A stretch of 64,000 bases of DNA from Bryoerythrophyllum caledonicum. Lineage: Eukaryota > Streptophyta > Bryopsida > Pottiales > Pottiaceae. The translations under genes and the position numbers were made by a program. The stretch lies in assembly GCA_963971425.1 (NCBI GenBank), contig OZ020519.1, positions 24,964,786 through 25,028,785 of the forward strand. The letters are read 5' to 3'. Shown here in pieces: positions 31,565 to 63,353 of this stretch. How positions within the stretch are numbered: the first letter of the stretch is position 1; the number at the start of each line of letters is the position of its first letter. Below the pieces are notes generated by a model. The model did no database searches. It saw only the letters and a list, made by a program, of their open reading frames with translations, and had not been told where the DNA came from.

Positions 31565-33792
31565 TTAAACTATACATCGTCCAGTAAAAGCAGTCGGTGA
31601 ATACTGACAAAGTCCATTCGTAGAGTGCCTGAGAATATTTTGCAGAGTGCATGAACCTGCTTCGCAATTGCCTTGTAATTCGATGGTCGCTCTAGCCCAA
31701 AAATAAAATACGGCCAGATATTACTCTACAGGCCCCTCCTTCTGAAAATAGGTCACCCATCCAAAAATAAAATAGGGGCCAGGCTTTGGTTGCCCCACCT
31801 CCCACCGAGAAAAGCTCGTGAGCAGTCGGCGGGTCAACTTCGCTTGTTGTTCACGGCATTTGGTCGAAGCGCGGACTGAGCAACAGCTACATCACTCACT
31901 TTATGAGTACACTTCACCTGCAACGTCTCCGCTAGATCAGTCCATTCAGTTCGTGCAAGATCGATTAACTAGAGATCAACATTAGAATTTCCAGATCTGT
32001 CGCAGCTTTCACTTTCTCAACAGATCATTGCTGCATAGTAGATCAGGTCTGCAGCTTCACGTTTTCTGTTTGCACTGGTTTGTTTGGATTCTGCGAAAGA
32101 TCGATTAGCTAGAGACCCTTAGTAGTTCCAGATCAACTTGAATATCGTCGCAGCTTTCACTTTCTCTAAAGACTTGATGAAACACTATCCAACTGTTGCA
32201 TAAGAGATCAGGTCTGCAGCTTCATGTCTTTATAATTGTACTGGTCTGTCTGAATTTTTTTCTAATCTGTCGTTGATTTGGTGCAGTTGACGAGGTGAGT
32301 GAAGAAACTAGGGAAGTTTGACCTGGTGATGGAGTATGTGGAGACGGAGCCGTTGAATGAGCAGAAACGGGAGGCGGGCGCGGTGGTGGGATCGCAGTAC
32401 TGCCTCCAGAAGGCGGAGTAGTTCACCCTGGAGAATGCCGTCTTCTCCAAGGCGTGGTCCATCACCAACGCCGACGGCCAGGAGGTCTTCCGCGTGCGCG
32501 GCAAGCGAGTGGATTGGTGCAAAGCCAAGCGGGAGCTCGTCGACATGGACGGCAACACCATCGTCCTCATGGAACAGAAGGTACAACCACGGCTGTTAGC
32601 GGTGGACTTCAGTAGTGCTGGATCATGCATGGAGTATGTAGCTAGGGGCATGTTAGGATTATCAAATAAGTAGAGAAGAGATTTATCGATACAGGCTTTC
32701 TTCGTTTACTGATTTTCATGGAATCTGCTGAGTTTTCTTCTGTTGTTCGTTCAGCCATGGTCGTGGATGGGAGTCTGGAGAGCGTTTCAGCCCGGGAACA
32801 AAGAGCAGCCGCTGTGGACCATGAAGAAATCCACTTTCTGCAGCCTCGGCCCACAGCTGCAGATCTTCCTGCCTTCCAACGCGGAGAAAGAGGTCCCGGA
32901 TTACACCATCAAAGGCGAGTGGCTGTGTAAAAAGTGCACCATCTTCCTGGGCGAGCAGAAGGTGGCAGAGGTAATTATCAAGTATCAAAACCAGATTAGA
33001 GATGATTATTTGTTGCCAAAATGAGTTGCTCTCGGCTGATATCCAGGTCTACACAGGCGATACTAGTCTGAGAACTTGAGATACCTGGGTGATACTCGTG
33101 CAGTCACCGACACTTACAGAACATTATTATCCTGCGAAGGCTGCATGAGGTCATGAGTCTCGACATGTCCATGTTTGTACAGCCAGCCTTCCGAGGTGTA
33201 CGACGTTGTTTACTTGTCCATTTCGTGATGAAACACAACCTGAGATTTTCCATGCTGATTCTCTTCATGACTGGCAGGTGGTGCGTGATGCGTCGTTGAA
33301 GAATGTGTTGATTGAGAAGAGCATATTCCACGTGTTGGTGCAGCCGCGCGTGGACGCGGCCTTCATCTTCTCCCTCATCGTCATCATGGACAAGCTCTAC
33401 ATCCACAACATCAAAAGCCACGGAGGCGGTGGTGGCGCGCCCACTGGCGGCGCTTGAAACAATGTGCATACGTTGATGATGTTCCCTTCAGATTATTCCC
33501 TAGTTTTGCAGCTTCTTGCCTGTCAATCGCAGCCATGTTAGGCCAGGAAAATTTATACTTGAAAGTGATGTCTCACCGTTGCTTCCTTGTCCATGTCACC
33601 TCGATCACGAACGCCGTATTATCAACCGGGTGTAAGGGTGGGTGTTAGAGTAGTATCGCCTGCGTATTGCATGGGTGTCAGCCGAGAATTGGGCATACAC
33701 GAGTTGCTACGTTGGCAACCTGCAGCAGTCCAAGTAGGGAGTAGATTTTACAGCTAGAACAAGCAAGGACTCCATTTGGTTTGGGTATCTTC
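31565..33792 (+). repeat. Segmental duplication, copy A right part (matches 50124-52546)
   Basis: The segment carries the LOR gene with upstream and downstream flanks. It is nearly identical to 50124-52546, with coding coordinates offset by 18769. Differences include a 156-bp retroposon plus its duplication present only in the other copy, a short deletion in the upstream repeat here, and 15 extra bases near the 3' end of the coding region here. Identity stops after gggtatcttc at 33792. Confidence 0.9.
32329..33457 (+). pseudogene. LURP-one-related (LOR) gene, copy A, nonsense-mutated
   Basis: This is the paralogue of 51098-52211 with the same three-exon structure (32329-32580, 32755-32970, 33278-33457) and intact GT/AG splice sites. 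Codon 31, CAG in the other copy, is TAG here (32419-32421), which truncates the product just inside the LOR domain. Other changes are mild (KEQKW reads NEQKR). The last exon has 15 extra bases adding APTGG-like residues to the Gly-rich tail. The rest of the reading frame remains open, so inactivation looks recent. LOR proteins form a tubby-like C2 fold associated with the plasma membrane and, in Arabidopsis LURP1, with pathogen response. This copy is probably non-functional unless the stop is bypassed or a downstream start is used. Confidence 0.85.
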
Positions 33793-34268: not shown

Positions 34269-35913
34269 CAATGGCAAGCACAAGTAATTGGACAGAGAGG
34301 CATCTCTCACAAATATGCCCACTGTAGCATAATTAATGAGTTCGTAAGATATTTTTTGGCATTGCTTTAGTCAACACACCACATGGCACCTTATTAACAT
34401 TGACTCCTTTAGAATTTGACACTTGTAGAGATTATACATGCCAAGATCATGAAGAGGTGCGTACGACTTATTATGCTCACAGGTTGTGCACACCATAATC
34501 TTTTCATTACATATCTATTGTAAAGCTTTTTGTTGTGAATTTTTTTGGTAAGATTTGGAGAGGCCCTTGGAGAGTAGCCATGGCTTCTAGAAGATCTGAG
34601 AATAATCCTAGAACAGTTCTTGAAATGTATGAGCGAGGGAACTCATATAGAGAGATTTAAGCACTTTTAGGCATTCCTCGAAGCACTTGTTCTGACATAG
34701 TGCGGCGATTTCGTGAGAGAGAGACCTTGAAAGACAAAACTTCACCTGGTAGACCTAGAATTCTTGATGAACGTGGTGACCGTGACATTGTGAGGAGGTT
34801 AAATGATCCACATACTAGTACAGCTGCAGCTGTAGGACATGCATTACGATGTGAGGGTATGCGATTGAGTGATGATACGGTGAAAAGAAGTCTTCGGAGG
34901 CAAGGGCTAAGAGCATGTGTGAAGACCAAGAAGCCACTTTTGACAAAGAAGCATCGAGCTCATCGTTTGCAGTGGGCAAAGAAGTGCAAACATGCAACTT
35001 GGGAATTTTGGAGTCATGTCATTTTTTCTGATGAATCGAAGTTCAATCTTTTTGGCTCGGATGGACGTCAATATTGTTGGAGAAAGAGTGGAGAGCGTCT
35101 TTTGGATCAGCACGTGCAACCTACAGTCAAATATGGGGGAGGAAGCATAATGGTTTGGGGTTGTATGAGTTGGGAAGGAGTTGGCAAGCTTCATTTGATT
35201 GAAGGGAAGATGGATAAATATGTATATCGCAATATTTTAGAGACGGAACTTATGGGCACTATACAAGTGCTTGAAGGTTTAGAAGAAGATCATGTTTTGT
35301 TTCAACACGACAATGACCCAAAGCACACTACACATTATGTTGTAGATTGGTTGCGTGCTCAAAAGTTTATTACTATTGGGCATCCTCCACAATCACCTGA
35401 CCTCAATCCAATAGAACATCTTTGGAATGAAGTAGATCGTCGTATGAGGAGGTTTGAGAGGAAACCTATCAGAAAAAGTGACTTGTGGGAGAAGATTCAA
35501 GAGATTTGGTACAACATAGAGGTTGATGTTGTCAGGAAGTTAATACGCTCTATGCCTCAAAGAGCTCTTGATGTCTACCATGCAAAAGGTGGATATACAC
35601 GGTGGTAGCGCTTGTGAGTGGTTAAGAGCTAAATCATTGAGTCATATAGTTATATTGTGACTTAATATATTGTTTTCTATAGCTGATATACAATAAAATG
35701 AATTCGTGCATAAAGAATTGGACAAGCTTGTTGCACATATGAATTATTGTGTGTTTTTCTAGTTCATACTTTATTGAAAACTTTGTGTTTTATGCTTGTT
35801 GCATCTATATACTCTGATGGTTATATTCTTGCTATTTTATGACAATTCATGTGGATGTGGTAGCTAATTTTCTAAAGAAGCTTCTATTGTACGACTATTT
35901 ATGCTTGCCACTG
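34269..35913 (+). mobile_element. Tc1-like DNA transposon (DD34E), TA target duplication
   Basis: The left end CAATGGCAAGCACAAGTAAT and the inverted right end CAGTGGCAAGCATAAATAGT are flanked by TA at 34267-34268 and 35914-35915. Length is 1645 bp, typical for Tc1 elements, with a single transposase gene on the plus strand. It is inserted in the 3' region of the minus-strand LINE and is therefore younger than it. Confidence 0.9.
34580..35608 (+). pseudogene. Tc1-like transposase, DD34E, one in-frame stop
   Basis: The frame starts at the ATG at 34580 (MASRRSENNPRTVLEMYERG) and runs to 35608. It has one in-frame TAA at 34658-34660 (codon 27), inside the first helix-turn-helix, where a single base change from a Gln codon would suffice. 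Downstream the 302-codon ORF from 34700 is uninterrupted. It contains the second DNA-binding region with GRPRIL (the GRPR motif), FSDESKFNLFG (first Asp), QHDNDPKHT (second Asp) and SPDLNPIEHLWNE (Glu). Thirty-four residues separate the second Asp and the Glu, so the triad is DD34E. The enzyme would cut and paste the element at TA dinucleotides. Most plant mariner-like transposases are DD39D, so a DD34E Tc1 member is notable here. The single stop makes this a very recently active copy. Confidence 0.9.
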
Positions 35914-36088: not shown

Positions 36089-37269
36089 CTATGTGGATGG
36101 GTGCCGGGTCGTTGTATGGTAGGCCTTTAACGGAAAGGATGTCAGGTTTAAATCTAGCATTGCAGTGGCATCGTTGGTTACACATGTACATGGGAGTAGC
36201 CAAGGTGGGACCGTTTTTTCTTGTGGGTTGTTATTGAAAAGGCCGGCATTCATGAGTATGAAACATCGGGATTTGTTATATGAGGTAATTAGTTTCCGGA
36301 TTTCCCATACTGCTTTGTTGTGTCTTTTGACAATGAGGGAGTGTATGTGGTGGTTTTGGCATTTAAGTAGAACATGTAGCCATGTGTCGGGGTTTGTAGA
36401 GGTATATATGGGGCATGTTATGGATGGGAAGCGTTCTATTCCGAAGAAGAGTTGTTTCCGGGCATTCCCCACATATTGACCGGTACGGAATTTAATAAGG
36501 CATGTAATTTGTGAGTCGGTAATGATGGGATTTTTCCAGAAATTTGTAGACAATTCATTGTCTATGTTATTATTGCCAGTCCATTTTTCTATGTGAGGGA
36601 ATTTTTCGAAGATCGTGTCAATTTCATTGTATGTGTCTTGTTTTATGAGATATTTTTCCAAAAATCGGACCGGGCCTTTGTCTGGGGTGTCATCTTTGGA
36701 GGGCCAATCCTCTTTTTGGAAGTAGTATGGGGTGGCATGTGCATGTTCATATGGGTCTTTGCCGTTTTTATGTGCTTTATCTCTTCCTTCTTTGGCTAGT
36801 TTACCGGCTTGTTCATTTCCTTCGATATTAGCGTGGGCTCTAACTTTATGGAGTGTAGTAGGTTGTGTTCGATTTTGTAGCGTTCGTACCATGGACATGA
36901 GTGTTATTTTGTCGGGGTGGCTATTGTGGAGAGTAGGGTGTGTTATTTGTGTATTTAGTAGATATAGGACATTGATGCAATCTGTAAAAATATGTGCGGG
37001 TTCGTTGGCATATTTTGTGTTGTGATTTGGAGTGTTTTATGTATGGCCATCATCTTAGCTCTGAGGATGTTTTGAAGTCCGTGAGGTCTTTTGGCTAATT
37101 TAATTTCTTTGATGGGATTGTATATGCCATATCCAGCTTTTTCTCTATGCCAGTGTCCAGGGCTACTTTCTACCGGTCCTTTGAAGGATCCATCCGTGTA
37201 GTAGCTATGTATGGGATCATATTTTGGGTGTGTATTTGTGTGGTAATTCGGGAGAGGGAAATTTGTCAT
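36089..37269 (-). pseudogene. LINE ORF2: RNase H and Cys/His C-terminal region
   Basis: Two minus-strand ORFs (36955-37269 and 36089-36898) form the end of the LINE polyprotein. The first has IHSYYTDGSFKGP, with the RNase H active-site Asp, and RAKMMAIHKTL, the usual position of the active-site Glu replaced or shifted. The second begins with TLHKVRAHANIEGNEQAGKLA, the RNase H motif around the last catalytic residues. It then has LIKFRTGQYVGNARKQ and a Cys/His segment (CPIYTSTNPDTW...LLKCQNHHIHSLI). A frameshift lies between them at about 36900-36955. The C-terminal segment lacks one Cys compared with the copy at 27228-27724. Confidence 0.8.
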
Positions 37270-39117
37270 AGAGTAGTTTAATGTGTTGTTATTGTATTCT
37301 AGTTTAGACCATTTTTTGCTTCGATTTACTAGTGTTTAGGGGGGTGTGGGCGAGGCAATGTTTGTGTGTATCCGGTTTATGTTCAGAGTTTTGGCTATGG
37401 ATGTGAGCGTGGTGAGTTGTTCTCAGGTTCCAATTGTTTTGTTTTGGTGATGGACACATAATATTTGTATTGTAGCTGGTTCAAGCCTAGGTTTTTTTTG
37501 TTCGGATGGGATAGTGGGTTCTTTGAATGTTATTGAGTCTGCTTCGATTAATGCAATGATGTGTGAATCAGGGAAAGGGCCTGAGTGTGGGTTAGGATTT
37601 TGGTACCACTTTTTGTTGGGAGTTATGATGAGGGTGGAGGTGTGGTTTGTGTCGTGTTTAGCCACGAGGCGGGCCCAATGTAGTGCTTGTTGTGTTTCTT
37701 CTTCATTGTGAGGGTGAGCTATAACATTGCCTATCCATTTGTAGTCAAAAGCTTTCCTAGTGATCTGAATATTTTATCTCTTTCAAACGGGGAGTAAAAT
37801 TTGTTAAATTTGATGGGGCATGTGACGGGGGAAGAGAAGTATGAATGTTGGATGTTGAATGTTGAAATTAATGAATTTAGTATAGGTGTGGGTAGTGTTT
37901 ATTGTGTAAGTTTAAGGGGGTTATTTTTAGGTATTCTATATTTGTATCTTTGGTATAGCCAAATTTCTTCGATTTCAAATGGTTGGGTTATTGGTTCAAT
38001 GTTTGTAGGGTTTTGTAGTTTAGTATTGTATTGGTTCCACAACCATGTGAGCCTAGTGACGGGGATGGTAAAGAGGTGTCATCCATCTTCTTCGTATAGG
38101 TGTGCTTGGTCTTTGTCTATTTTAATTGTGTTAAATGAGGTAAGGATGTCTCTTTTGGGGTTGCATTCCATTGTGTAAATGTTTAGTAGGGGGATTATTA
38201 TGGGTGGGGTGACGGACCTTGTGTCTTGGGGTTGATTTTGTGGATGGTGAGCTTGAATAATTTCGGTGTAGCATTTGTGTTGAATTCTTTGATAATATTG
38301 TGTCAATTTGTTGATATTATGTGTAATGGTATTTTGGTTGTGTCTTGGGAAGAGGTTTCTTTGGGGGAGCCACTTGTTGTAGGTGTTGTTATTGTGGATC
38401 CATAGGCATAAATATCTGGTGTAGTTGTTTTCAATTTGGTTATTATCTATTTTTTCCTTGTGTTCGTGGTGTATGATGTTGTTGATGGGGTATGTGGTGG
38501 ATTTTTGAAGATGTGGTTTGGGAGGCGGGGCTGGTGTGGGTGGGAGTGGGGAGGGTATATTGATGGTGGGGGGGTATTTCTTGAGATGATGTCGTTGTTT
38601 ATAGTGATGAATGGCTCTTTAAGTGTATAGGAGTATATATGTGTATTGGTATGAGTAGTGTGTGAGGGGGGGTGTATTGGATGGCAAAAGAGTTGTGCGA
38701 TTTTGAGGGCACTTTTAATTAGTTTTGATGGGGCGGAGTGGAAGGTTTTAAACTCTTCATTGTTCATGATGTGTGTTCCATTAGGTAGGGAGATTTGTTT
38801 TAGTTTGTAGATATTTTTTGATAGGAGTTTTTGTTATAATTTTTGGGATAATTGTGTGTTGAGTGTGCTATGATTTAGTGTTTCGAGGGTCCAAGCTTTT
38901 TCTAGTGTTGTTGGTTCTATAAGAAAGTTGGAGAGGGTACTTTTTAAGTGGACTTTTGCTACGTGTTTTAGTAAGAGGAAGGTACGTGCTATTGGTGATC
39001 TTGTACAATTCGTCTTTTTTATTCTGGGTATGCTTTGGCCCCCCCATATTGAATAAGGATGTGGTGTGTTAGGCCCCTATATATTATTCCAAGTCTACCA
39101 CTATCATTTAGAGCGTT
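37270..39117 (-). pseudogene. LINE ORF2: linker between RT and RNase H, highly decayed
   Basis: The minus strand holds short open pieces, for example 37423-37665, 38079-38306 and 38447-38767 (MNNEEFKTFHSAPSKLIK). These are rich in Asn, His, Pro and Ile and lie between the two catalytic modules. Composition (A/C-rich on the minus strand) is continuous with the neighbouring LINE modules. No catalytic motif is expected here. Confidence 0.6.
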
Positions 39118-40705
39118 CTATAATTGTTCTCCAATGCATCTAAGGTATGCATTTTTTATCGAAAAAGCTTCTAGTCCAAAGAGGTTGTGCGGTAATTGGG
39201 TTATTATATTAGACATGCATTTTGGCATGCCACATACGGTTTTTTGTGTGGCCGTTATCTTTTGGTCTAATTTTTTTATGGCAGGCATTGAGTATGGTAT
39301 TGCGTAGAAGCTGTATGCCACGCTCGGTCTTAAGACTGTGTCAATCATTTTTATTTTTGGTTTCATAGTGGCCGGGCAAGCTATTAGTTCTTTACATTTT
39401 TTAATTAGTTTTTTGGTGGTGGCATGGATTTGGATTTTCCATTTTAGGGAGGGGACAAGGTTTATTCCTAAGTGCATATAAGGTTCGTTTTGGTGTAGTA
39501 CGGGTATTGGTTGGTTTCGGTAATTAATGTTAGCGGTTTGTATTAGGGCTTTGAATGCAGTGGGATTTGTTTTTGATTTATTTAGGCATCCAATGACGGC
39601 ACATTTTGGGACACCTACATCCATACCTGTCCATTTGCAGTATCTGTCTATTTTGTTAAGTTGTATTTTTATAGCTTTGATTTTGTTGGTTATGGCGGCA
39701 AGATCATCCGCATATGCCGTGGAGTTAATGGTGGTTTGTGATGTCCCAAATGTATATCCATTGTTGCCTCTATCTAGCCATCTAAGTAGTGGTTCTAGGA
39801 ATATGATGAATAAGTATGGGCTTAGAGTATCCCCTTGTATTGTTCCCCTATGGATGGCTATGGCTTTAGTTTTTCCAAAGTGTTCTCCTATGTAGGAGGT
39901 GGAGGATTCAGAGTATATATTTCCCACTAGTGCGGTTGCGTCTTTGGGGTATCCAAGGTCCGTCATTATGGCTAGAAGTCTAGCGTGGTTTATAGATCCG
40001 AAGACATTTTTAAAGTCAACATACAATATGAATATGTCTTGGTTTGTAAAACGTGCATCTTCTAATGCGGCTATTATTGTTTGGATTTGTCTAGCGGTAC
40101 TTCTTTCTGTGCGGAACCCCTCTTGGCTACCATGCAATATTTTGTGTTTTTCGCCATATGATGATAGTATTGTTGCGAATGTGCCTGTAAATAATTTATA
40201 GATGGTGTTGGCTAATGCAATGGATCTATGGTTTGGTAGCATGGATGGATCACCTTTCTTGTATAATAGAATTGTTGCACTTATTTTCCAAGAGGCAGGA
40301 ATTTGTTTTTGTTTATAGCAGTGGGAGAAGAAGAGGTTTAAAAGTTTGTGGAACCTTGGGGGCATATTTTTTTAGTATGGAGTTCGGTATCCAGTCTGGT
40401 TCGGGGGCTTTATTATTTCCTAGGTTTCGTAGGCAAGTGTCATATGTAGCTTTAGTAAAGTATATGTGTAGTGGAATTTTCGGATCTCCTCTTTTTTCTA
40501 ATGTGTATCCGTCTAGGTCATGCCATGGATATTGTCGTACTGTGCATGTACATGTTGTGGGGTGGTCTGGTTGATAGTTGCATGTTTCTACTGTAGGTCT
40601 GTTGTTTTTTGTTTGTTGGTTAAATATTTCGTTTGCAATGTCCTTTGGGCTAGTTAGTATATTGTCATATTGGTCGGTGATGCAGTCTAATGGAGGTGAT
40701 TCCAT
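39118..40705 (-). pseudogene. LINE ORF2: reverse transcriptase domain
   Basis: The upstream piece (40313-40705) contains NNKAPEPDWIPNSILKK, corresponding to the KAPGPDGIPN entry motif with two changes. A frameshift leads to the 415-codon piece 39118-40365. There, ILLYKKGDP and NHRSIALANTIYKLF precede GFRTERST. YVDFKNVFGSINH holds the first catalytic Asp, GTIQGDTLSPYLFIIFLEPL follows, and AYADDLAAI is the YADD box with the other two Asp residues. The thumb region ends in AYLRCIGEQL, as in many LINEs. The catalytic residues are intact but the polyprotein is broken in several places. Confidence 0.9.
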
Positions 40706-41422
40706 AGTTTTGAATACTCTTCTGTTTATTTTCTTGGGGTTAGTTTCATACAGTTGTCTGTATTTTGAGATGGTTTTTCTAATGTTTTCTTGAGCATATT
40801 TGGTGGTAATCTCACGGGCTTATATGTTCGCATTTTTTGCAACTAGTGCTATATTACTTATCCAGGTGTCGTAAGGTAGATGTATGGGGGGTAGATTTGG
40901 AATTTGTGTGTGTTGAAGGTTTTGTAGTTCGTTGAGGATAGGATGGCTTCGCCATTGGGGGTTGTTATTTATGGTTCTTATGGTTTTCGTATAGTGTGGT
41001 AAATGGTTAAGTGTTGTTTCCATGTTTTAGATAGTTTACGAGGCAAATATCCACCTTGTTGTGATGTTCGTTTTGTCATTTGTGATATGGGTTGGGCTTT
41101 GCAGGATTGTTCAATTGTAATGGATATGTTGTTGATGAGTATGTCTAGGGCGTGACAAGCTTCTTGCCATTGAGTTTGGGAAAGATGATTATTAGATTCT
41201 AATGCGTTTTTTAGGGAATCAATGCGTAATGAGTTTTCCTCAAAGAATTTTGTGTTGAATAATTCTATGTTGTTTTGTGGGATGGGGTTGAGGATACGTA
41301 TGTGGTCATTGTTTGTGGTGTTTGGTGTACAGTTTATGAGTGTGTTGTTTGGAATGTGGAGTTGTATGGGTGAGTGATCGGAGTTTCGGTAAATGTTATT
41401 ATTTGTTGTGGAAGTAAATGTA
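40706..41422 (-). pseudogene. LINE ORF2: region between endonuclease and RT
   Basis: The minus strand reads short pieces such as METTLNHLPHYTKTIRTINN (40820-41023). Composition is continuous with the LINE. No motif is expected beyond the linker helix region. Confidence 0.55.
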
Positions 41423-42150
41423 TTATGGTTGGTTGCACGGAGTCACATAGAATCCATCAATTAGGCTCCAGTCTCTATAGTTGTGTTGTCCTTGTCTAGA
41501 GTATGTGGTGTTTGTCGGTATATAATTAAAGTTTAGATTTTCTGTAAAATGTTTCCATTGTAGGTCTGTCATTTGTGGTGGTATATATTGGTTTCCGTTT
41601 AGTCTTCCTATGAGGGCAATGTCTCTGTTGAAGTCACCACGTAAGATGTGGTTGTGGTTGGGGTTGTTGGTAATATGGGTGGTGATGTTAATTTTGATGT
41701 CCTGGGTGAGTCGAGTGTCTTCAGGGTGGGATGGCATGTATATGTGGTGGATGAGCCATGATTGTAGTGGGTGGTTGGAAATTTCCATAATTTGGAGGTA
41801 TGGGGATATATTCATCGGGGTGGGGATTTTTTTAACATTGCCTGGAAAGGCGTAGTTTTTGTGTATGAGAGTGAGGAGGCCTCCTCGTCCCGGTGTATAT
41901 GGTCTTCTTTGTTGTATATATCGTGTTAGGGCATGTGTATTGTTGAAGATAAGTTTGTAGTCGGGAAATAGTCTTTGTATGTATTTTGTGGATTTTGTGG
42001 CCGAGATTTTTGTTTTTTATATGACTATGAGTGTCGGTGGTGTGTTATTGTGCATAATTATGTTTTGTAAGTTTGGGAGTGTGATGTTAAGGGATGAGAC
42101 GTTCCATGTTATTATGCTTGTATTGTTATTGTTCGTGTCTGGGTTATGGT
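41423..42150 (-). pseudogene. LINE ORF2: APE-type endonuclease domain
   Basis: From about 42120 downwards the minus strand reads ITWNVSSLN, the start of an apurinic-like endonuclease. It continues through decayed sequence to RYIQQRRPYTPGRGGLLTLI. The C-terminal 130 codons (41423-41815) contain MEISNHPLQSWLIHHIYMPS, HILRGDFNRDI (the GDFN motif) and a final SLIDGFYVT, where other members have a SxID box. Target nicking by this domain primes reverse transcription. Stops and frameshifts show the copy is inactive. Confidence 0.75.
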
Positions 42151-42231
42151 TTTATGATGGGATGTGATTCGACGGTGGGGGTGGGTGTATGTATTCCGGG
42201 AGGGGGTTTAGGCATTTTAGTGATTCATTTA

Positions 42232-42759
42232 TTATTGTGTTTGGGAGGTAGGGAGATTTTTTTTTATCATGTCGTTTGATGGGGGTATATTTTGGTTGTG
42301 TATAAAGTCATATAATTCTTTGTTTATTGATGTGTTGTGGTTTATGGTGTTTAGGTTAGTTTCAAGAAATATTGTGTAGGGGTGTGGGATGTTAATGTGT
42401 CTTGCGGGTGGGTTTTGTAGATTGTGTAGAGTGTGTAGGAGTGTATTGGTCCATTGGGTTATGTTTTGATTCTTTGTATTTAGGAGTTGGTTGGAAAGGT
42501 CTATGTTTGGGTGTATGGTAATGACTAGAGCATATAGGGTGTGGGATGGTGGGTGTCCATTATGTTGGTTTGTATATCTGGCAATATGTGGGTATGTGTC
42601 ATTATGTGGTTGATGTAATATGTTTGTGGTTTTAAAAAGGGGGGCAAATTTTTGGGCAATGTGTTCGTATTCGGGTTGTAGTTTTATGGTATTTGGTATA
42701 AAATATATTTTGGCATTCTTTTTGTGTGAAGCGGGGTGTCTTTTTAATACGTTCGGCAT
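42232..42759 (-). pseudogene. LINE leader ORF preceding the endonuclease
   Basis: A 175-codon minus-strand ORF starts MPNVLKRHPASHKKNAKIYF. It is rich in Asn, His, Thr and Ile and ends with a stop just before the endonuclease start. It may be the N-terminus of ORF2 or the end of ORF1. No RNA-binding motif is obvious. Confidence 0.5.
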
Positions 42760-42879
42760 GGGTCCTGGGTTAGTCTCTTTGTCCCCTCCAAGTAGTATTA
42801 GTAGTTTGTAGTAGGTGTGTTTTTTGTTTTGTTTTAGAATTTTTTGTTTTTTTATGCGGCTTTGGTATTTGATTTTGTT

Positions 42880-43635
42880 CTTTTTTTATTGTATGTATTT
42901 ATCTTTGTATGTGTGTGTATGTGTATCTTTGATGGTATGTAGTTGTTTTTGTATTTGTGTGTATATGTGTATTTGTATTTGGATTTGTATTAATATTCAT
43001 GCGTATGTTTGTATTAGTATGCGTCTCAATATTCATCTTAGAATTCATTTCTGTATTTATATGAGTATTCGTATTGAGGTTGTGTGTATAGTCTAGGAGT
43101 TGATTTATGGAGTGTGTTTTTGTTGGAGTTTGTGTTTTTTGTTTTACCTGGTATGTGTGGGAAGTTATATATTATTATTATTATTTTTTCCATTTAGTGT
43201 ATTAATTTTTGTGGTGATTGATAAGTTGTTGTTTGAATATTTATTTTCTTGATTTTATGAGTAGTATCTATACTCATATCTGTATCTGTGTCCATATCCT
43301 TTCTCGTATTTGTATTCACATATGTGTTTGTATTTTTACTCGTACCTGTATTCGTACCTCTATTTGTACCTGTATTCATATCTATATTCATATCTACATT
43401 CATATCTATATTTGTATCTGTATTCATATCTATATTTGTATATGTATTCATATCTATATTTGTATATGTATTCATATCTATATTTGTATATGTATTCATA
43501 TCTATATTTGTATCTGTATTCGTATATCTATTTGTATTTGTACTTGTAATTGTATCTATATCTATATACGTATACCTATACATATTCCAGTATGTATATA
43601 CATATGTGTTTTTGTATTTAGTCGTGAGGAAATAC
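42880..43635. repeat. Degenerate TGTATN hexamer array with 24-bp higher-order units
   Basis: About 750 bp consists of variants of tgtatt, tgtatc, tgtata and cgtatt with a strict 6-bp rhythm. Between about 43404 and 43523 a 24-bp unit (tatctatatttgtat.tgtattca) repeats at least four times. Because the period is a multiple of three, frames on both strands stay open. This explains the apparent 79-147 codon ORFs here, including the minus-strand TNIDMNTY repeat peptide. Confidence 0.85.
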
Positions 43636-46613: not shown

Positions 46614-46785
46614 TTAAGATGGCATACCTCTTTTTCTAGAGGTCCGATGAGAATAAAAAATTTATGCTCTACTGTACCTCATGTCTGCTTGCAGCTTCAA
46701 ACGAAATTTCAAGAATTTGAGATATAATTTGCAACCATGGAAATGTGCCGGAGATATGCAAAAGCCCACTTTTATCATATAGGGG

Positions 46786-47254
46786 TTGAGAGCAACCAAT
46801 CTTGTTACCAATAAAATATTAGAAGGTGGAGGAGTTGTATGCCGTGTTGTAAACAATCAACTTTGGGTCAAACTTGACGTTGTATCTCTGCCATGTCAAA
46901 CAAGCGAGCCAGCATCGCTAGCGTGTCTTCACCGACACAAGGTACTCTACCTTAGTGGTCCGAGTGCTTCACAGCGTCGGCGAAGTAGCAAAGAAACCGA
47001 GCATGGCGCACCAAGTCGTCAAGTTCCACAAATACAAGATTCTCTACCTTAGTGATCCGACTATGACACAGCGTCGGCGAAGTAGCATAGAAACTGAGCA
47101 TGACGCACCAAGTCGCAATTCTCTATCTGATGCATATTCCACCTTCAATGAGCTGCCACAATGTGGACCCGACATCGCACTCAGGAGAATACAGACATGT
47201 AAGTTTATTCTTTCAGTGAGTTACACAGTCAAACTGCTTAAATTGTTCATTTAA
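46786..47254 (+). CDS. Unrecognised ORF segment with 97-bp tandem repeat (copy B)
   Basis: Paralogue of 24137-24605 with the same two overlapping frames (46786-47052 and 46955-47254). It has the same duplicated QRRRSS.ETEH peptide, the same 97-bp unit offset and the same gtaagt at the end of the CGPDIALRRIQT peptide. Only a few substitutions separate the copies, most of them outside the peptide repeats. Function unknown; a decayed exon or repeat-derived ORF are both possible. Confidence 0.3.
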
Positions 47255-47894
47255 TAATAAAAATCTAAAAAAATCTTATAAAAAGATCAACAGAAAACAA
47301 GCCTCGAAATATCACCTCGCCTGATGATTCACGTGACTCTTGTTCACCTCTTCATTCCACAATTAGGGTCTTACTAAGAAAACAATAAGTTGTGGACTTT
47401 GTCAAACTGCCCCACTTCATGTGTGGAACGATGATCTCCACTAGAATTAGAGTCATGGAAACAAGCCAATTATGCCCCACATTAGTTACCATTTCAAAGG
47501 AGAAATTTCATCTAGCTAATCGACAAAGAGATAGAGAGAAACGTGAACCTAGAAACCTCCATGAATCAAGCTTTTGTTTGGGAAAGTGCAATTATATACA
47601 TGCCACTAAGACCTGGATAGTAAATGCTATCCTTGCTTTCTCCTTTGAAGCCATGTAACCGTTTAACCTACTACTAAGTATCTCAAGAAGAATGGACATA
47701 GAATATTAACTATCAACTAAATCACTCAATGTTATGTGACGAAGATTACTTACGAGTTTGCTGTATATTATATCTGTCACTCGCTAAGACTACCACAATA
47801 TTGTTTTATTACCCAACGGGTATCTCCTAACCACATGGTCTCCTCCAAAGATTATTGTATTGATTTGTCAATGCACGTCAACCACAGAGCTTAG

Positions 47895-50455: not shown

Positions 50456-50687
50456 TACAGGGCCCCCCCTTTCAGATAATAGTTCACCCATCCAGAAATA
50501 AAATAGGGGCCAGGTTTTGGTTGCCCCACCTCCCACCGAGAAAAGCTCGTGATCAGTCGGCGGGTCAACTTCGCTTGTTGTTCACGGCATTGGGTCGAAG
50601 CGCGGACTGAGCAACAGCTACATCACTCACTTAAGTGCACTTCACCTGCAACGTCTCCGCCAGATCAGTCCATTCAGTTCGTGCAAG

Positions 50688-51050
50688 ATCGATTAACTAG
50701 AGATCAACATTAGAATTTTCAGATCTGTCGCAGCTTTCACTTTCTCAACAGATCATTTGATGAAGCATTGTCCAACTGCTGCATAGTAGATCAGGTCTGC
50801 AGCTTCACGTTTTATGTTTGCACTGGTTTGTTTGGAGATTTTTCTACTCTGTCGTGGCTTCTGCGAAAGATCGATTAGCTAGAGAATCTTACTAGTTCCA
50901 GATCAACTTGAATATCGTCGCAGCTTTCGCTTTCTCGAACTCTTGATGAAACACTATCCAACTGTTGCATAAGAGATCAGGTCTGCAGCTTCCTGTCTTT
51001 ATGTTTGTACTGGTCTGTTTGAAAGTTTTTTTAATCTGTCGTTGATTTGG
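50688..51050 (+). repeat. Imperfect ~180-bp tandem duplication upstream of LOR copy B
   Basis: Two successive blocks share agatcgatta.ctagaga, tcgcagctttc, tccaactg.tgcata, gatcaggtctgcagctt and ttgtactggt-like words. The second ends in a pyrimidine-rich run and gtgcag just before the coding exon, which resembles a 3' splice site of a 5'-UTR intron. Copy A has the same arrangement at about 31967-32280, but its first block lacks about 20 bases. Confidence 0.6.
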
Positions 51051-51097
51051 TGCAGTTGACGAGGTGAGTGAAGAAACTAGGGAAGTTTGACCTGGTG

Positions 51098-52211
51098 ATG
51101 GAGTATGTGGAGACGGAGCCGTTGAAAGAGCAGAAATGGGAGGCGGGCGCGGTGGTGGGATCGCAGTACTGCCTCCAGAAGGCGGAGCAGTTCACCCTGG
51201 AGAATGCCGTCTTCTCCAAGGCCTGGTCCATCACCAACGCCGACGGCCAGGAGGTCTTCCGCGTGCGCGGCAAGCGAGTGGATTGGTGCAAAGCCAAGCG
51301 GGAGCTCGTCGACATGGACGGCAACACCATCGTCCTCATGGAACAGAAGGTACAACCACGGCTGTTAGCGGTGAACTTCAGTAGTGTTGGATCATGCATG
51401 GAGTATGTAGCTAGGGGCATGTTAGGATTATCAAGTAAGTAGAGAAGAGATTTATCGATACCGGCTTTCTTCGTTTACTGATTTTCATGGAATCTGCTGA
51501 GTTTTCTTCTGTTGTTCGTTCAGCCATGGTCGTGGATGGGAGTCTGGAGAGCGTTTCAGCCCGGGAACAAAGAGCAGCCGCTGTGGACCATGAAGAAATC
51601 CACTTTCTGCAGCCTCGGCCCACAGCTGCAGATCTTCCTGCCTTCCAACGCGGAGAAAGAGGTCCCGGATTACACCATCAAAGGCGAGTGGCTGTGTAAA
51701 AAGTGCACCATCTTCCTGGGCGAGCAGAAGGTGGCAGAGGTAATTATCAAGTATCAAAACCAGATTAGAGATGATTATTTGTTGCCAAAATGAGTTGCTC
51801 TCGGCTGATATCCAGGTCTACACAGGCGATACTAGTCTGAGAACTTGAGATACCTGGGTGATACTCGTGCAGTCACCGACACTTACAGAACATTATTATC
51901 CTGCGAAGGCTGCATGAGGTCATGAGTCTCGACATGTCCATGTTTGTACAGCCAGCCTTCCGAGGTGTACGACGTTGTTTACTTGTCCATTTCGTGATAA
52001 AACACAACCTGAGATTTTCCATGCTGATTCTCTTCATGACTGGCAGGTGGTGCGTGATGCGTCGTTGAAGAATGTGTTGATTGAGAAGAGCATATTCCAC
52101 GTGTTGGTGCAGCCGCGCGTGGACGCGGCCTTCATCTTCTCCCTCATCGTCATCATGGACAAGCTCTACATCCACAACATCAAAAGCCACGGAGGCGGTG
52201 GTGGCGCTTGA
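51098..52211 (+). CDS. LURP-one-related (LOR) protein, copy B, intact
   Basis: Three exons (51098-51349, 51524-51739, 52047-52211) are joined by phase-0 introns of 174 and 307 bp with GT/AG borders. They encode 210 residues. The start is the first ATG in frame, because a TGA lies 33 bases upstream in that frame. The product shows the LOR (DUF567, tubby-like C2) pattern: YCLQKAEQFTLENAVFSKAW, SITNADGQEVFRVRGKR, ELVDMDGNTIVLMEQK, then KKSTFCSLGPQLQIFLP and CTIFLGEQKVAEVVRDASL. The C-terminal helix is FHVLVQPRVDAAFIFSLIVI, followed by MDKLYIHN and a Gly-rich tail. The C-terminal hydrophobic helix is buried in the beta barrel in the family structure and is not a transmembrane segment. Known members are plasma-membrane-associated and some are linked to oomycete defence in Arabidopsis; the role here is inferred. 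Exons are GC-rich against AT-rich flanks. Confidence 0.9.
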
Positions 52212-52546
52212 AACAATGTGCGTATATTGATGATGTACCCTTCAGATTATTCCCTAGTTTTGCAGCTTCTTGCCTGTAAATCACAGCCATGTTAGGCCAG
52301 GAAAATATATACTTGAGAGTGATGTCTTACCGTTGCTTCCTTGTCCATGTCACCTCGACCACAAACGCCGTATTATCAACCGCGTGTAAGGGCGGTTGTT
52401 AGAGTAGTATCGCCTGCGTATTGCATGGGTGTCAGCCGAGAATTGGGCATACACGAGTTGCTACGTTGGCAACCTGCAGCAGTCCAAGTAGGGAGTAGAT
52501 TTTACAGCTAGAACAAGCAAGGACTCCATTTGGTTTGGGTATCTTC

Positions 52547-55260: not shown

Positions 55261-56516
55261 AAGACGAGCTCGGATATAAAGAGAAGACTCGAGGGGCTGG
55301 CTTAGAAGTAGGCCTCGAATCTTGTTTCGTAGGTCACTGTTCATTCGCAGATTAGGCCCCGGTTTGAACTTGGATTTGACTTGGTTTTGCCTTGGGATTT
55401 GTTTGATTAGATGCCTTTTCACTTGGCGCATAGAATTGGTGGGACCGTGGCCACCGCCATCAAGGTTAATTAATGTCGCCGATTTTAGTTGAAGGGCATC
55501 GTTTGCTTTTGGCATTTGTGTGTGTTTGAAAGCAGTATAAGTGAGGCGTCTCTTGACACCTCTCTTCACTGCTTGATGTGTGTATTTGCTTTTAGTTTAA
55601 TTCTTAACCTACACTCTCAAAGCCTTTCATAATTGGAGAGCTCGGATTCTATACATGACTGTGAGTACCATTTCAAGTAGTCCGCTCCTCAGTTCGTTCT
55701 AACCGTCGCATTGTTGTTTCCTTGCTCCATAATTTAGAGTAGTTAGATAGAGTGGGAATAATATGTGAGACAACGGGAGGGTTGGAAAGGTGTGAATCTG
55801 AAATTGAATGTTTGTTGTTGTTTCCTTGTGCAATTGCATAGAACTAGTTAAGGTAGGATGAGAATAACGGATGAGAATAACAGTTGAGACAACAAATGTT
55901 TAAAGGAGGAAGAGGGGGAAGTGACGGGTGAGAAAGGAGTTTTGGTACGTCTTGTGTGACCTATCGGTGGCAGTATGTAGCCGGTTGTGAAGGTGCAGTT
56001 CAAGTTCCAGATGCACCAACCTTAGGTCGGATGGTTGATTCATAGGAACTCCATATTACCTTAGCATCAAGTCTAATTTCAGTCCTTCCCTTTGTGAAAA
56101 TGTCTATTGAGGATGACTGAACCCAAGTCTTTGAATTATGGATTGAGTAGGACCTGGTTTGATCCCTTGTGCGAATGTCTATGCGGTTATAACTAGGAAT
56201 TACTCAAACAACTGGGATTGCCTTAAGAGAAGAAAGGAGATGTAACTCACCCCTTTGTGCGAATGTCTATTGGGGTGCTGGAAGAAGGACTTTGTTCTCT
56301 GGAGGAAAGGAGTAAAGTTGGTGGTCCCTTGTGCGAATGTCTATGTGGACCAGTTAGATAATACTCTTTTAGCCAGCCCGAGGTAAAGGAAGGACTCACT
56401 AGCTTGCATGGTAGGTAGGTAGACCAGTTACTTCCACGAGAGTTGCGTTTGTCCTAAGGGCCTAAGTCTTTATCCCCCTTACGGCGGAATTGCAGTGAAA
56501 TCACAACCATCCAAGT
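55261..56516. other. Non-coding region following the purine-rich block
   Basis: Includes the four-fold repeat phrase at 56088-56348. The 55400-55680 part is unremarkable and the minus ORF 55153-55569 has no recognised motif. It may be the untranslated part of an element that includes 54000-55260. Confidence 0.35.
56088..56348 (+). repeat. CCYTTGTGCGAATGTCTAT phrase, four copies
   Basis: The phrase occurs at 56088 (diverged), 56164, 56251 and 56326, i.e. every 75-87 bp. Each is followed by tg.gg or tgagg. The DNA between copies is not similar. It is too long and regular to be chance; meaning unknown. Confidence 0.75.
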
Positions 56517-56999
56517 AACACCATATTCGTTATATTGGGAGATTTAGTGACTCCCAAATTAACACATGTAGATCATAAGAGCTAAAGTGCACATCTAAAC
56601 TCTACAATATGGAGGGATATGAGTTTCCATTAAATTGGGAGGTAATGTTTTCTACAAAAACCCGTAGAAAAATAAGTACTACGGATAACATTACATTACG
56701 AATCTAACTATAACATTGAAAAGAAGAACACATTAGTTGACACTTCTTTTATACCACATGTGTTCATTGAATATGAATAGCTAAATATTCACACTCGATC
56801 CTACTAACCCGGATTAACACCATGCTCCAATTTAGCTAAAAGTGAGCTAAATGACGGACAAATATCCACTTGTAAGAGAATTAGCTTAACACATTTTGAT
56901 GAGCCCTTTTTGATTTAAAAGAATTTCAATTCTCCTTGTGGAATACACATTGGCAAAAAAAATATATAACGAGTTTCAAATGATGGTGCTCAGAAGTGG

Positions 57000-57190
57000 G
57001 AAAAAAATTGCACACACTACCTCTTTTCGAACTAAAGTGTCCCCATCACTTAGAGGTGCAATGAACTCAAAAAGGAAACTCCACACACTTTAGCTCCACT
57101 TGACCTAAAGTGCGCACCATTACTAAGTACACTGAACTAAATAAGAAGATTTGCTCACACTTTAGCTCCACTAGAGCTAAAGTGCGACCC
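57000..57190. repeat. Subterminal ~70-bp repeat array with TTTAGCTCC palindromes (left)
   Basis: Two clear units (palindrome centres 57099 and 57171) and a diverged one near 57030 each carry cacacttTAGCTCCACT..., an imperfect palindrome. They are separated by spacers of the form gtgc.ccatcactaag.gtgcaatgaac. A related array in the same orientation lies at 62400-62615. Confidence 0.65.
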
Positions 57191-57501: not shown

Positions 57502-59651
57502 TTACGATTCGGAGCTAGCAAGTGCTTCCAAGGAGGCCTTGATAATTGCTACTTGCCCCTTCGGAATTTTTGTAGTTGAATCTTGCAGATGACCTCCATC
57601 CCTCTTTGAAGACCTAGGTTTCCATGCTGTCAAGATTGAATCGGTACTCTCCCACGTTATGGCTATCCCCTTTTCAATTGTCCAACGAAGGTTGCAATCT
57701 GTGTCCCAATCTTTATAGAACTTCATAACATCCCGATCGCGCGATATAGGGCGGAAGAATTGGATACGCACGGTGTTTGGCATATCCGGGTTAGAATTAG
57801 GATCTGAAATTGCTTGAGCAATCCAAAATGGGTGCTCGTCCCCATCACAAGGCCGCAATGCAACAAAATAGCCAGCAAAAAGATCACGACCAACTCTAAA
57901 AGAAGGAGGTGGACGATCGCGTCTTTGGCCAACAAAATGCTCATCTTCATGGTACTCCTCACAAACCTCACCCTCCGCTGAGAACTCATCTTCAATGGCA
58001 TGGGCAATTCGCGTCGTCGGCCAGAAGTCGTCTATCAATGATATCGGCGTATCCATTGGAATAATCAGAGCAGCTCTAACATCACGCCAATAATACGAAA
58101 GTGGCTCAAAACGCGATCGGGCTTCAACAGACTCCCGAGATGATTGCTCCCAGTGATCGATGAATCCTGAAAGTCCCTTCACCACCTCATGGAGATGCCG
58201 CATCATAGAAGGCTTCAATGCATCAGGTTCTCCGCGAGGCCATAAAGATCTTCCTTCACAATCCTCCTTCCACAATTTGATGCCACTACCTTCTCCTCCC
58301 TTAGGAAGCCAATCCTCATCATGACAAAGGATTTTATACTTCATTACCGGACAACCACTTGAATCCACATAAAACTTGAACTGATGAGCCTTTGTATGAC
58401 CCTCCAAAGCTTCATCACCGTCCGCAATCATACCCCCAATGAACTTCTTAAAGTCAGGAAGTACAAGTCCCGATGTGAGAAAGCAAAATCAATGTGAACC
58501 TGCATCTTCTTTTGCCATAGCAGTGATGCTTGTGTTCCAGGTTGAGTAAGCTTCTTCTGATCCTGGTATTTGTCACAAGTAGAACAACGGGCAAAGTTGT
58601 CTCCACCTTTCTTGGCATAGTACTCAGGGAAGCTCACACGCCGAATCTTACTCAAGCTTGAGGTTGAGATTGGCGGCAATCCGCAATCAGCGAGATGATC
58701 ATCAAGAAGCGGTATCTGATCCTTCCACTTAAAACTTGTAGGAAGGACCTTTGCCACAGCCTTCTCCCCAGATGGGAGAACACGAGACTTGTGAGGCATG
58801 TGGTCCGCATGTCTATCGAGAATGGCTCCAAGAGCGGCAGTAGCCACAACCGTATGACCTCTAGGCTTACGCAAACCGGTATTCCCGTGGTGTTGAGCGG
58901 CATGACCAGCGGCAACGTCCTTCGCATTCCAATAGAAAGTACTCGAACTTACACCCATGATTTTCATCCAGGCATGGGCACAAACGTCCACACCCTCTAG
59001 GGTCACAACCTTCCTACCCGCAGCGTCTCTATGAAACTGTCTGTGAACGTCGAGTTTGATATGATTTCTGAACTGCACGATGGTCTCACTGTACAAGCGC
59101 GTCCGAAGGACTCTTATTTTATCTCTAGGGTAGTGTTGAACACAGTTTTGACTGCAACAACTATTGCTCGCAACAGCGTTAATGGAAAGAGGGGTCATGA
59201 GAAATTCAGCATTCCTGGACACTATTGGACGTGTATTCCTTGAGGAATTGTCGTACGAACGGGAGCTCCCACCTAGTGGTCTGTTACGCTCAACCAACCA
59301 GACATTGTAAATGTCCCGAAGGCAATGATGGAAGAGACTCACACCGTTTAAGAAGACTTGTTGAATAGGCCAGGTCTTAAACGAGTACCTCCACTCATCA
59401 GGAGCTTCGTCTAAAACAAAAGTACTGGACACCTGTAGTACAACATTCGAATCCCCAAGAGGACCAGAGGAACCTAGAAGTGCACTGGACCGGACATTGC
59501 GAACCAACCCCTCCGCAACACGAACACCCGAACCATTGTGAAGCGAAACAGTCAGCCCGACCTAGAGACGGCGAGGAATAACATCAAACTCAGGCAGGTC
59601 TAGATTCACAGGAGCGTCAACATGAACATCGTCGCCCTCCGAAGACGACAT
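57502..59651 (-). pseudogene. Unrecognised transposase-like protein, stop plus frameshift
   Basis: The minus strand opens at 59651 (MSSSEGDDVHVDAPVNLDLP). It has one TAG at about 59562-59564 and is then open from 59507 to 58428. The second half is an ORF of 309 codons at 58431-57502 that overlaps the first by four bases (ATGA) in another frame. The N-terminal half contains a Cys cluster (NSCCSQNCVQHYPRD), then EGVDVCAHAWMKIMGVSSST, HHGNTGLRKPRGHTVVATAA and a CxxC (FARCSTCDKYQDQK). It ends VHIDFAFSHRDLYFL, where a DDE-type core would begin. The second half has FYVDSSGCPVMKYKIL, DWLPKGGEG and a C-terminal module GYFVALRP....FWIAQAI. This layout recalls large algal/plant hypothetical transposases with a DUF7869-like domain, from memory only. 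The central catalytic part looks shortened. Confidence 0.5.
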
Positions 59652-59988
59652 CCTGCATTCCAATGAGATACATAATAAATAACCCTGACAAATAAAAATG
59701 GGTAAACGCCTTGTAGGAATAGACATTTATGAAGAAGCATAGGAAGAGGGTAATTGATCTCAAATCGAGGTAAGGTCTGGCGCTTGAAAAGAAAAGTATG
59801 ATTCAAGTGAGCTGACATGGCAAACCATGTAAATTTAGCTTGACTTGAGGTAAACTCATGCGTTTTAACATGACAAGTATAAAATTTCATGCAATTAGCT
59901 ATAATCCGAATATGAAATTATTTCACCCTTGACAAAGACAACTAAGTCCGACCCGACCTAAATTTATGACTATCAGACTCATTGTTAT

Positions 59989-60337
59989 TTTAACTCGAGT
60001 CGAGTTAAACAGAAATAGGACATCAGGTGTGTCAGTTTAGCTCGAGTCGAGCTAAACTTTCCTTCAAAAGAAGGTAAGACAATTTAGCTCGACTCGAGCT
60101 AAACTATCGATAATAATATTTATCGACAGTTTAGCTCGAGTCGAGCTAAATTGTACTAGGAAAGAAGGTATGACAGTTTAGCTCGACTTGATCTAAATTG
60201 TCAATACAATATTGTAAGACAGTTTAGCTCGAGTCGAGCTAAACTGTCTTACCATCTTTCCAAGGACAGTTTAGCTCGACTCGAGCTAAACTGTCGATAA
60301 TAATACATATCGACAGTTTAGCTCGAGTCGAGCTAAA
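59989..60337. repeat. Array of eight 21-bp palindromes at 47-bp spacing
   Basis: Palindromes with 10-bp arms TTTAGCTCGA and TCGAGCTAAA around one central G or C are centred at 59999, 60046, 60093, 60140, 60187, 60233, 60280 and 60327. The steps are 47 bp except one of 46. The first is a TTTAACTCGA variant and the fifth is degenerate. Several extend outward to GACAG/CTGTC. Some spacers are themselves near-palindromic (for example tatcgataataatatttatcga). The array lies 340-690 bp upstream of the transposase-like gene, on its promoter side. Confidence 0.95.
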
Positions 60338-60958: not shown

Positions 60959-61083
60959 TTTTAGGGTAACGCTCAGGGTTAGGGTTAGGGTTAGGTTTAG
61001 GGTTTAGGGTTAGGGTTTTGGGGTTTAGGGTTTAGGGTTTGGTATTTAAGTTCAGGTTTTAGGGTTCAGGGTTTAGGGTCCTT
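60959..61083. repeat. Interstitial telomere-like tract (TTTAGGG/TTAGGG mix)
   Basis: About 125 bp of tttaggg, ttaggg and degenerate variants in one orientation, ending near ggtccttgg. Plant telomeres are usually TTTAGGG; here TTAGGG units are mixed in. It lies inside the inverted-repeat-bounded region, far from any visible chromosome end. Confidence 0.9.
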
Positions 61084-62399: not shown

Positions 62400-62615
62400 T
62401 TAGCAAAGGTGTTCACCATCACTTTGTGCAATGAACCAAAAGGAGTGTGTGCACACACTTTAGCTCCAGTAGCGCTAACGTGTGCCTCGTCACTGGGTGC
62501 AGTGAACTAAAAAGAAAATATGCACAGTTTAGCTCTACTAGCGCTAAATTGTGCACCATCAGTAAATGGAGTAGATTAGAAAGCAAAAATGCACTATGTA
62601 GCTCCAGTATACAGA
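62400..62615. repeat. Subterminal ~70-bp repeat array with TTTAGCTC palindromes (right)
   Basis: Units are centred at 62469 and 62538, with a weaker one near 62605. They carry TTTAGCTCCAGTAGCGCTAA-like palindromes and spacers (cgtcactgggtgcagtgaac) matching those at 57000-57190 in the same orientation. Confidence 0.65.
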
Positions 62616-63111
62616 AGATGGCTTCTAGAGAAGTGGACACTAAATAGGAATCCATACAGTAATTGTAAAATAAACAATAAGTGTAGTGTCAAAACTATAC
62701 ATCACCCAATGTCAACTACTACTCTAAATGTCAATCCTAGTAAATAGTGGAACATAAAGTTTTTTACTTGTGGACAATTAGTTTAGGAAACCATAATCAT
62801 GGTTTGATTACATCTTGAGCATCATAGTAAGGAAGGGTTGAGTGCATGTAGAAAAGCAAGAATTTGCAAGAAAGAGCTTGGGAATAATCGGACGTAGGTA
62901 TGGAGCAAACGAAAAATATCAAAAATTGGACAAAGTAGAATGTAAAATATGGAGGGAAAATGAAACTGCAAGTAGAAGATTGGAAATATAAGAACATTCT
63001 TCTGGAAACGAAAATGAGAAAAGAAAGGAATATTGGAAAAGAAAAAACTTAAACATACAATAAATATAGAAATACAAGTAAAATACTCATTAGATATCCA
63101 TCACATATTAT
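62616..63111. other. Non-coding AT-rich spacer
   Basis: No feature recognised; the minus ORF 62797-62997 is compositional. Confidence 0.35.
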
Positions 63112-63349
63112 AACACCATACTCATTTTATTGGGAGATTTCCAGGATTTTGAAAGTTATGAACGGTTTTTCCAATACATTTTTTTGGTGCACATTCAGCT
63201 CGACTCAAGCTGAATATGTACCCATATTGTAGATATTGGACAAATTGCATTGTGCAAATTTACTAAATATTTGCATATTTAGGTCATTCTCAAGCTTCAA
63301 ATATTATTTTGGGAGGCTCCCAATCTCCCAATATAATGAATATGGTGTT
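63112..63349. mobile_element. Small TIR element (238 bp) related to the 6.8 kb region's ends
   Basis: Begins AACACCATACTC...ttattgggagatt and ends with the complement of AACACCATATTC...ttatattgggagatt. TTAT flanks both sides (63108-63111 and 63350-63353), a possible 4-bp target duplication. An imperfect palindrome cagctcgactcaagctg lies at 63197-63213. Confidence 0.6.
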
Positions 63350-63353
63350 TTAT

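Follow-up and report, generated by a model that had tools for sequence, protein, structure and literature searches.

A palindromic site array upstream of a DUF7869 gene in a 19-kb DNA transposon of the moss Bryoerythrophyllum caledonicum

The palindromic array and its host element

The window analysed here, a stretch of 64,000 nucleotides from Bryoerythrophyllum caledonicum (contig OZ020519.1, positions 24,964,786 to 25,028,785), carries an array of eight palindromic sites, A1 (59989-60337; like the other site groups, the target duplication and the nested MITE below, given without strand). It precedes the inferred start codon of a DUF7869 gene by approximately 340-690 bp. Its sites start at 59989, 60036, 60083, 60130, 60177, 60223, 60270 and 60317, with spacings of 47, 47, 47, 47, 46, 47 and 47 bp in order. 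A previous sequence-only reading of the window described eight palindromes in perfect register. The register of 46-47 bp holds for all eight. Six sites have the exact form TTTAGCTCGA-S-TCGAGCTAAA and the site at 59989 (TTTAACTCGAGTCGAGTTAAA) bears a symmetric change that leaves its palindrome perfect, whereas the site at 60177 (TTTAGCTCGACTTGATCTAAA) has decayed. Scored over 20 positions, with at least 16/20 as the main threshold, decayed sites also lie to the left of A1 (59834-59962), one at 59834 (17/20) and one at 59942 (14/20), the latter a ninth site in A1 register. A chance origin of the palindromes is ruled out by 13 matches with up to three mismatches in the window against none in each of 100 dinucleotide shuffles. 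The degenerate palindrome TTTAGCTCNANTNGAGCTAAA gives 15 matches at the same tolerance, all between 56517 and 63349 (0.03 expected).

The central bases of A1 read G G C G C G C G from 5' to 3'. Reverse-complementing a G-centred site yields a C-centred one, so alternation of the centre means that neighbouring units are inverted. Such alternation, claimed for the array as a whole, begins at the second site, the first two both being G-centred, and strict alternation is not general in other copies. When all units are oriented to a G centre their flanks largely align (consensus TTATCGACAG..CTGTCCTACC), and because these asymmetric flanks are largely shared, the repeat unit is larger than the palindrome. 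The inversion of neighbours accounts for the partly self-complementary spacers, correctly noticed in the sequence-only reading, and for the long hairpins predicted between neighbouring units when A1 is folded as RNA (-223.7 kcal/mol, z -24); folded as DNA it gives z -26.

A1 lies within a 19,137-bp DNA transposon (C7:25021302-25040438) that begins at window position 56517 and ends 11.7 kb beyond the window. The region beyond was read via L003 and L004, and the 84-kb region examined consists of the element and 64,863 bp of other DNA. As in cut-and-paste DNA transposons the element has terminal inverted repeats, one at the left (approximately 28 bp, AACACCATATTCGTTATATTGGGAGATT, 56517-56544, plus strand) and one running inward from L004:1653, outside the window. 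The target-site duplication AAGT occupies 56513-56516 and recurs directly after L004:1653. Ends of the form AACACCATATTC..TTGGGAGATT are present in the window at 56517(+), 63112(+) and 63349(-). The last of these was rejected as the end of the element, since it closes a nested MITE (63108-63353 with its duplications; the MITE itself 63112-63349, 238 bp) that has similar ends, the 4-bp duplication TTAT on both sides and one palindrome at 63194 (17/20), while the AAGT of 56513 recurs after L004:1653. A second copy, C4 (30746103-30765067, 18,965 bp), is flanked by the 4-bp duplication ATTA, is without the nested MITE and is 87% identical to the C7 copy where the two align. Both include a degenerate telomere-like TTTAGGG patch (60961-61079, plus strand; approximately 175-320 of L037 in the C4 copy). 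The C3 copy has a large insertion inside and no duplication (TAAC/AGAA). Genome-wide, the terminal repeat has 648+676 = 1,324 exact matches and its reversed control none. Further insertions on C1, taken from exact terminal repeat matches, have a perfect 4-bp duplication in 14 of 16 cases against 2 of 240 mismatched pairs; by class, these are three of four long terminal repeat pairs and 11 of 12 MITEs.

Genes of the element and the placement of its sites

The DUF7869 gene of the window copy is a remnant on the minus strand (57505-59651), its start codon placed by similarity alone. It has an in-frame TAG (59562-59564) and a 675-bp deletion with 5-bp microhomology TCAGG (approximately 58454-58458), by which most of the DUF7869 core was lost and the frame changed. 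It was therefore rejected as a working transposase, and the earlier description of A1 as upstream of a transposase-like gene is right as to the adjoining gene of a transposon, although that gene is broken here. The window copy appears to be a defective, internally deleted member of its family that could move solely with proteins from other copies. A diverged relative on a stray contig, L001 (CADCWO010000071.1), the sole match of an exact palindrome search across 84,980 prokaryotic genomes, has an open DUF7869 frame of 963 codons (2,892-bp ORF). The L001 protein matches Pfam PF25273 (DUF7869) with E 1.7e-42 and 145.7 bits, above the gathering score of 26, and shares 72% and 74% identity with the two gene pieces of the window, which owing to the 675-bp deletion themselves reach at most 11 bits. 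Pfam's name for PF25273 gives no function, no paper naming the domain was found in the literature searches made and PDB sequence searches returned nothing informative; the DUF7869 protein is the probable transposase. L001 was deposited as a cyanobacterial MAG contig yet encodes a plant-type transposon gene, and is probably eukaryotic contamination, perhaps from moss.

The best 47 of 5,121 first-look genomic candidates for the DUF7869 gene were scored. All come close to full length, with 76-77% identity to L001, and 29 of the 47 are free of internal stops, with C866 and C867 perhaps one copy assembled twice. With dN/dS of 0.13 between the window family and L001, and of 0.066 for the core-bearing C3 piece, the comparison indicates that the gene family is under purifying selection. 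Between the C7 and C3 copies the ratio is higher (0.21-0.78), like that of decaying copies, which counts against the reading favoured below.

The right-hand gene unit runs on the plus strand from approximately L003 4554 to L004 860. When seven of its ORF pieces were compared with Pfam, a single one passed a cut-off, with a NIF phosphatase domain near the unit's end (PF03031, E 2.6e-12). Near its start the unit matches HTH_Tnp_Tc3_2 below threshold (E 0.0068, 17.1 bits, cut-off 31.5). Neither L001's protein nor any of the right-hand pieces scanned gave a DNA-binding domain above the Pfam cut-off, which also counts against the favoured reading. The NLI-interacting-factor-like phosphatase domain (L003 9386-10000 and L004 1-240) reads DLNG at the motif position where such phosphatases usually carry their second aspartate. 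The domain is perhaps captured cargo.

Sites scoring at least 16/20 number 34 in the element, one of them in the nested MITE, against none in the other 64,863 bp; at 15/20 or above the counts are 36 in the element and one elsewhere in the 84-kb region. Left of 56517, the 13 sites of at least 13/20 in the window are near chance (12 expected per window). The window copy has 12 sites of the exact form. None of the 34 falls within the 6,957 bp of inferred coding sequence, and all three predicted GT-AG introns carry sites (2, 3 and 1), intron borders and start codons having been placed by eye and similarity, without RNA. Each gene unit is preceded by an array, the DUF7869 gene by A1 with its 47-bp period and the right-hand unit by A2 (67260-67574 in extended window coordinates), which has seven sites, 51-53 bp apart, and a 52-bp period. 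Outside the arrays sites are single or 65-97 bp apart. They include a pair at 62459 and 62528 (62459-62548), 69 bp apart and equally spaced in C4, and three left-end sites (56831-57181) at 56831, 57089 and 57161 (16, 17 and 18 of 20) with counterparts in the C3 and C4 copies. Both ends have sites 0.3-0.7 kb away, the first at 315 bp and the last of at least 16/20 at approximately 640 bp, so that any contact with the ends themselves is conjectural, a point against the favoured reading. The proposal that a spacing of about 4.5 helical turns sets neighbouring sites on opposite faces of the helix fails as a rule, because A2 is spaced by 51-54 bp, or approximately five turns; the other sites are single or more widely set, and those of L001 are irregularly spaced.

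Conservation among copies, MITEs and a diverged relative

The exact 21-mer has 3,562 matches genome-wide and its reversed control none, which at 12 exact sites per copy would crudely correspond to some 300 copy equivalents. Among the first 60 listed positions, 23 of 25 successive distances of up to 250 bp are multiples of 46.7 or 52.3 bp, and seven of the 10 clusters formed from these positions lie within 10 kb of an exact terminal repeat match (0.6 expected). A 31-bp version of the site has 402 strand matches; in the first 100 of these as listed, 32 of 33 distances no longer than 300 bp keep the A1 register. Listed 31-mers that are 46-47 bp apart have the same orientation in four of six pairs, and those 92-94 bp apart in just four of 21. 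If orientation alternated strictly, neighbouring units would face opposite ways and units two steps apart the same way; these pairs contradict such a rule.

Array sampling covered 12 of the 47 scored gene copies, 11 of the 12 without a stop. A1 is in the same place in all 12, with 4-11 units and 81 of 83 gaps at 46-47 bp, the other two being 51 bp. A generic satellite unlinked to the gene family, the outcome that had been set against the sequence-only reading, is thereby ruled out. Judged by the upstream stretch that aligns with the window, the sampled copies form two subfamilies, with 84-87% and 95-96% identity to it, and the orientation pattern of A1 units differs between them. In the C3 copy A1 has gone along with the first codons of its gene.

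The single sites of the C7 copy have counterparts in C4 and vice versa, apart from the MITE site, an additional site in C4 and a weak one in C7; the arrays of C7 and C4 have 8 and 8 sites in A1 and 7 and 9 in A2. Sixteen single sites align ungapped with 305/336 identical positions, against 1144/1414 in their local non-coding flanks (Fisher 8e-6), and the array cores reach identities of 0.918 and 0.912 where the spacers reach 0.765 and 0.672. Compared with random non-coding 21-mers of the element, for which the ungapped average identity is 0.882, the excess is modest (133 of 5,000 random sets as high) and counts against the favoured reading, so that the argument for constraint rests on the contrast with local flanks. 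Just outside the core, 63/90 position pairs in 18 single sites show complementary changes, against 47.6 in shuffles (0 of 1,000 as high). Such outer changes are better explained by conversion between the arms, or by selection for a hairpin, than by half-sites that are read independently. Correction of one arm of a quasi-palindrome by the other would produce them with no selection at all, and they are the main observation that the protein-site model fails to predict.

The 12 MITEs sampled (seven of 163 bp and five of 237 bp) have all kept the ends and one palindrome of 16-18/20, which reads TTCAGCTCGASTCGAGCTGAA or differs from it by one or two changes; those of 237 bp have a second, weak match of 13-14/20. 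The smallest mobile forms sampled thus consist of ends and one site, in appearance a near-minimal requirement, although the two size classes resemble each other and share ancestry, so that the 12 amount to one or two independent observations. In L001, the 1,435 bp of flank hold 12 sites of at least 13/20 and the ORF is free of them, against 0.77 expected over the contig as a whole; seven reach at least 15/20 (0.02 expected). Palindrome, terminal repeat and protein scans of viral contigs found nothing informative, as was the case for searches of plasmids with the L001 protein and of phages with the array.

A proposed function and its alternatives

The element resembles En/Spm (CACTA) transposons such as soybean Tgmt* in being large, with short inverted ends and a motif repeated in both orientations that forms stem-loops, as the available text on Tgmt* describes it (PMC2613891). 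According to that paper, the protein TNPA acts as a regulator of the element and recognises its subterminal repeats (PMC2613891). In contrast, the ends here (AACACCATATTC) start with AACACC rather than CACTA, the starting base being fixed by the 4-bp target duplication, and that duplication is 4 bp and not 3. The sites here also keep a greater distance from the ends and occur within introns and in the interior of the element, each is itself a palindrome, and the gene carries DUF7869. The tnp2-type transposase domain, PF02992, had no match up to E 1 in the L001 protein and the seven right-hand ORF pieces.

VANDALs are Mutator-like elements. A Pfam comparison of the L001 protein and the right-hand ORFs scanned, taken to E 1, returned no MULE domain. 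In the arrangement of its motif the element is close to VANDAL21, which in the account available has a dense family-specific motif in introns, intergenic and terminal non-coding DNA and changes in tandem copy number (PMC5735166); the 34 sites here are likewise dense in non-coding DNA. VANC21 binds the VANDAL21 motif YAGTATTAY, which lies in one-orientation arrays and tandem repeats through the non-coding parts and, in the text that presents it, is not described as a palindrome, whereas the sites here are palindromic (PMC5735166).

A putative protein-binding array is the best-supported reading of A1. We lean, with modest confidence, towards a model in which a protein encoded by the element recognises the palindromes, both to mobilise the element and to control the two upstream regions. 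A dimeric protein would read the dyad-symmetric site. At the sites towards the ends and in the MITEs it would help to assemble or recruit the transposition complex, and at the dense sites of the two upstream arrays the same protein would control transcription of the DUF7869 gene and the right-hand unit, by auto-repression, activation or protection from silencing. The arrays would expand and contract by tandem duplication of 47- or 52-bp units, which would give their even spacing. Two published systems each show one half of such a mechanism, TNPA (PMC2613891) and, in the portion of the work available, VANC21 (PMC5735166).

The palindromes might instead serve as anti-silencing addresses, at which a VANC-like element protein is brought to all non-coding parts to remove or block DNA methylation, rather than to assemble a transposition complex. 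We consider this unlikely, although the layout of the sites resembles that described for VANC21 targets, with introns, intergenic and terminal non-coding DNA and tandem repeats of variable copy number (PMC5735166), and although the unit number of A1 ranges from 4 to 11 across the 12 copies. MITEs of 163-237 bp are too short for such a gene yet have retained one site, and VANC motifs are, as presented in the same source, dense and in one orientation, whereas the sites here are palindromic and many are single (PMC5735166). Binding by a host transcription factor or chromatin protein exploited by the element would suit the clustering of sites upstream of both gene units, but would be expected to leave sites at host genes as well; in a small sample of 15 ten-kb stretches elsewhere, taken at round coordinates, 14 had no site of at least 15/20 and the fifteenth lay inside the C3 copy of the element. 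This makes host-factor sites a highly improbable explanation.

The very stable predicted hairpins of A1, together with the changes outside the core that preserve complementarity, present both in single sites and in L001, could point to a source of hairpin RNA, in which array transcripts form long hairpins and then small RNAs that regulate or silence the family. This is improbable given the many isolated palindromes, whose own hairpin has a one-base loop, and given that unit orientation, which sets the long hairpins, varies between copies; nor is there an excess of complementary flanking pairs in A1 (28/40 vs 27.7) or A2 (22/35 vs 21.4). The same complementary changes also fit arm correction, and with it a passive repeat in which palindromes arise as a functionless, hitch-hiking by-product of tandem duplication and arm-to-arm correction. 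Constant 47- and 52-bp periods could be inherited from tandem duplication, unit number is variable and tandem repeats with the same core are reported, in the part of the work available, from Physcomitrella patens (PMC6302065). However, no tandem repeat is formed by the single sites, which occupy fixed places towards the ends and in introns; they are kept between copies approximately 13% diverged and also occur in L001, and sites are absent from inferred coding sequence and persist in MITEs. We therefore give the passive origin little credence.

In P. patens, Pp01_31 and Pp08_44 were published as 31- and 44-bp tandem repeats and, in the text that presents them, are given without a link to a transposon (PMC6302065). 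Both contain AATCAGCTCGAGTCGAGCTGATT (Pp08_44 when read in tandem), which has the same core with symmetric outer changes and is near the MITE form TTCAGCTCGASTCGAGCTGAA. The earlier statement that no described element with this arrangement was known needs qualifying, since the palindromic core itself had already appeared in print. Beyond that paper, searches with the palindrome or terminal repeat letters gave nothing relevant by title among the literature matches listed, and those for a moss DNA transposon with subterminal palindromes gave no moss element by title among the matches listed.

A wider conjecture, which we put forward as speculation and would not expect to hold in full, would place the DUF7869 elements in an undescribed superfamily of their own, made up of giant eukaryotic DNA transposons, with all their non-coding parts marked by a palindromic, orientation-free address. 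One element protein would read this address to mobilise the element, to control its promoters and to escape silencing. Over time the address would drift by paired changes (the TTTAGCTC, TTCAGCTC and AATCAGCTC forms) that define cross-mobilising families, and would at times surface as moss satellites. What looked like an odd array becomes the signature of an abundant giant transposon family, with many copies that have open genes, and DUF7869, a Pfam domain without assigned function, gains a concrete context. A possible origin is offered for the two orphan Physcomitrella repeats. How a transposon addresses its own copies also becomes testable, as the sites can be counted, removed and bound, and the 163-bp MITE provides a near-minimal substrate.

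Other features lie in and around the window. To the right of the element, L004 9655-9993 encodes part of a DUF7869-type protein, 33% identical to residues 753-862 of L001 and perhaps of a different family. Within the window are a stop-free 315-codon Tc1/mariner-type transposase frame (34661-35605, plus strand; HTH_Tnp_Tc3_2 E 8.4e-14, DDE_3 E 1.3e-12) and a fragmented LINE (36092-42885, minus strand) with a reverse transcriptase domain (RVT_1, E 6e-24) and, below threshold, a weak match to RNase H. Long direct repeats occur in two pairs, at 31727-33792 and 50456-52546 and at 23972-25180 and 46614-47829, with identities of approximately 94.6-94.7%.
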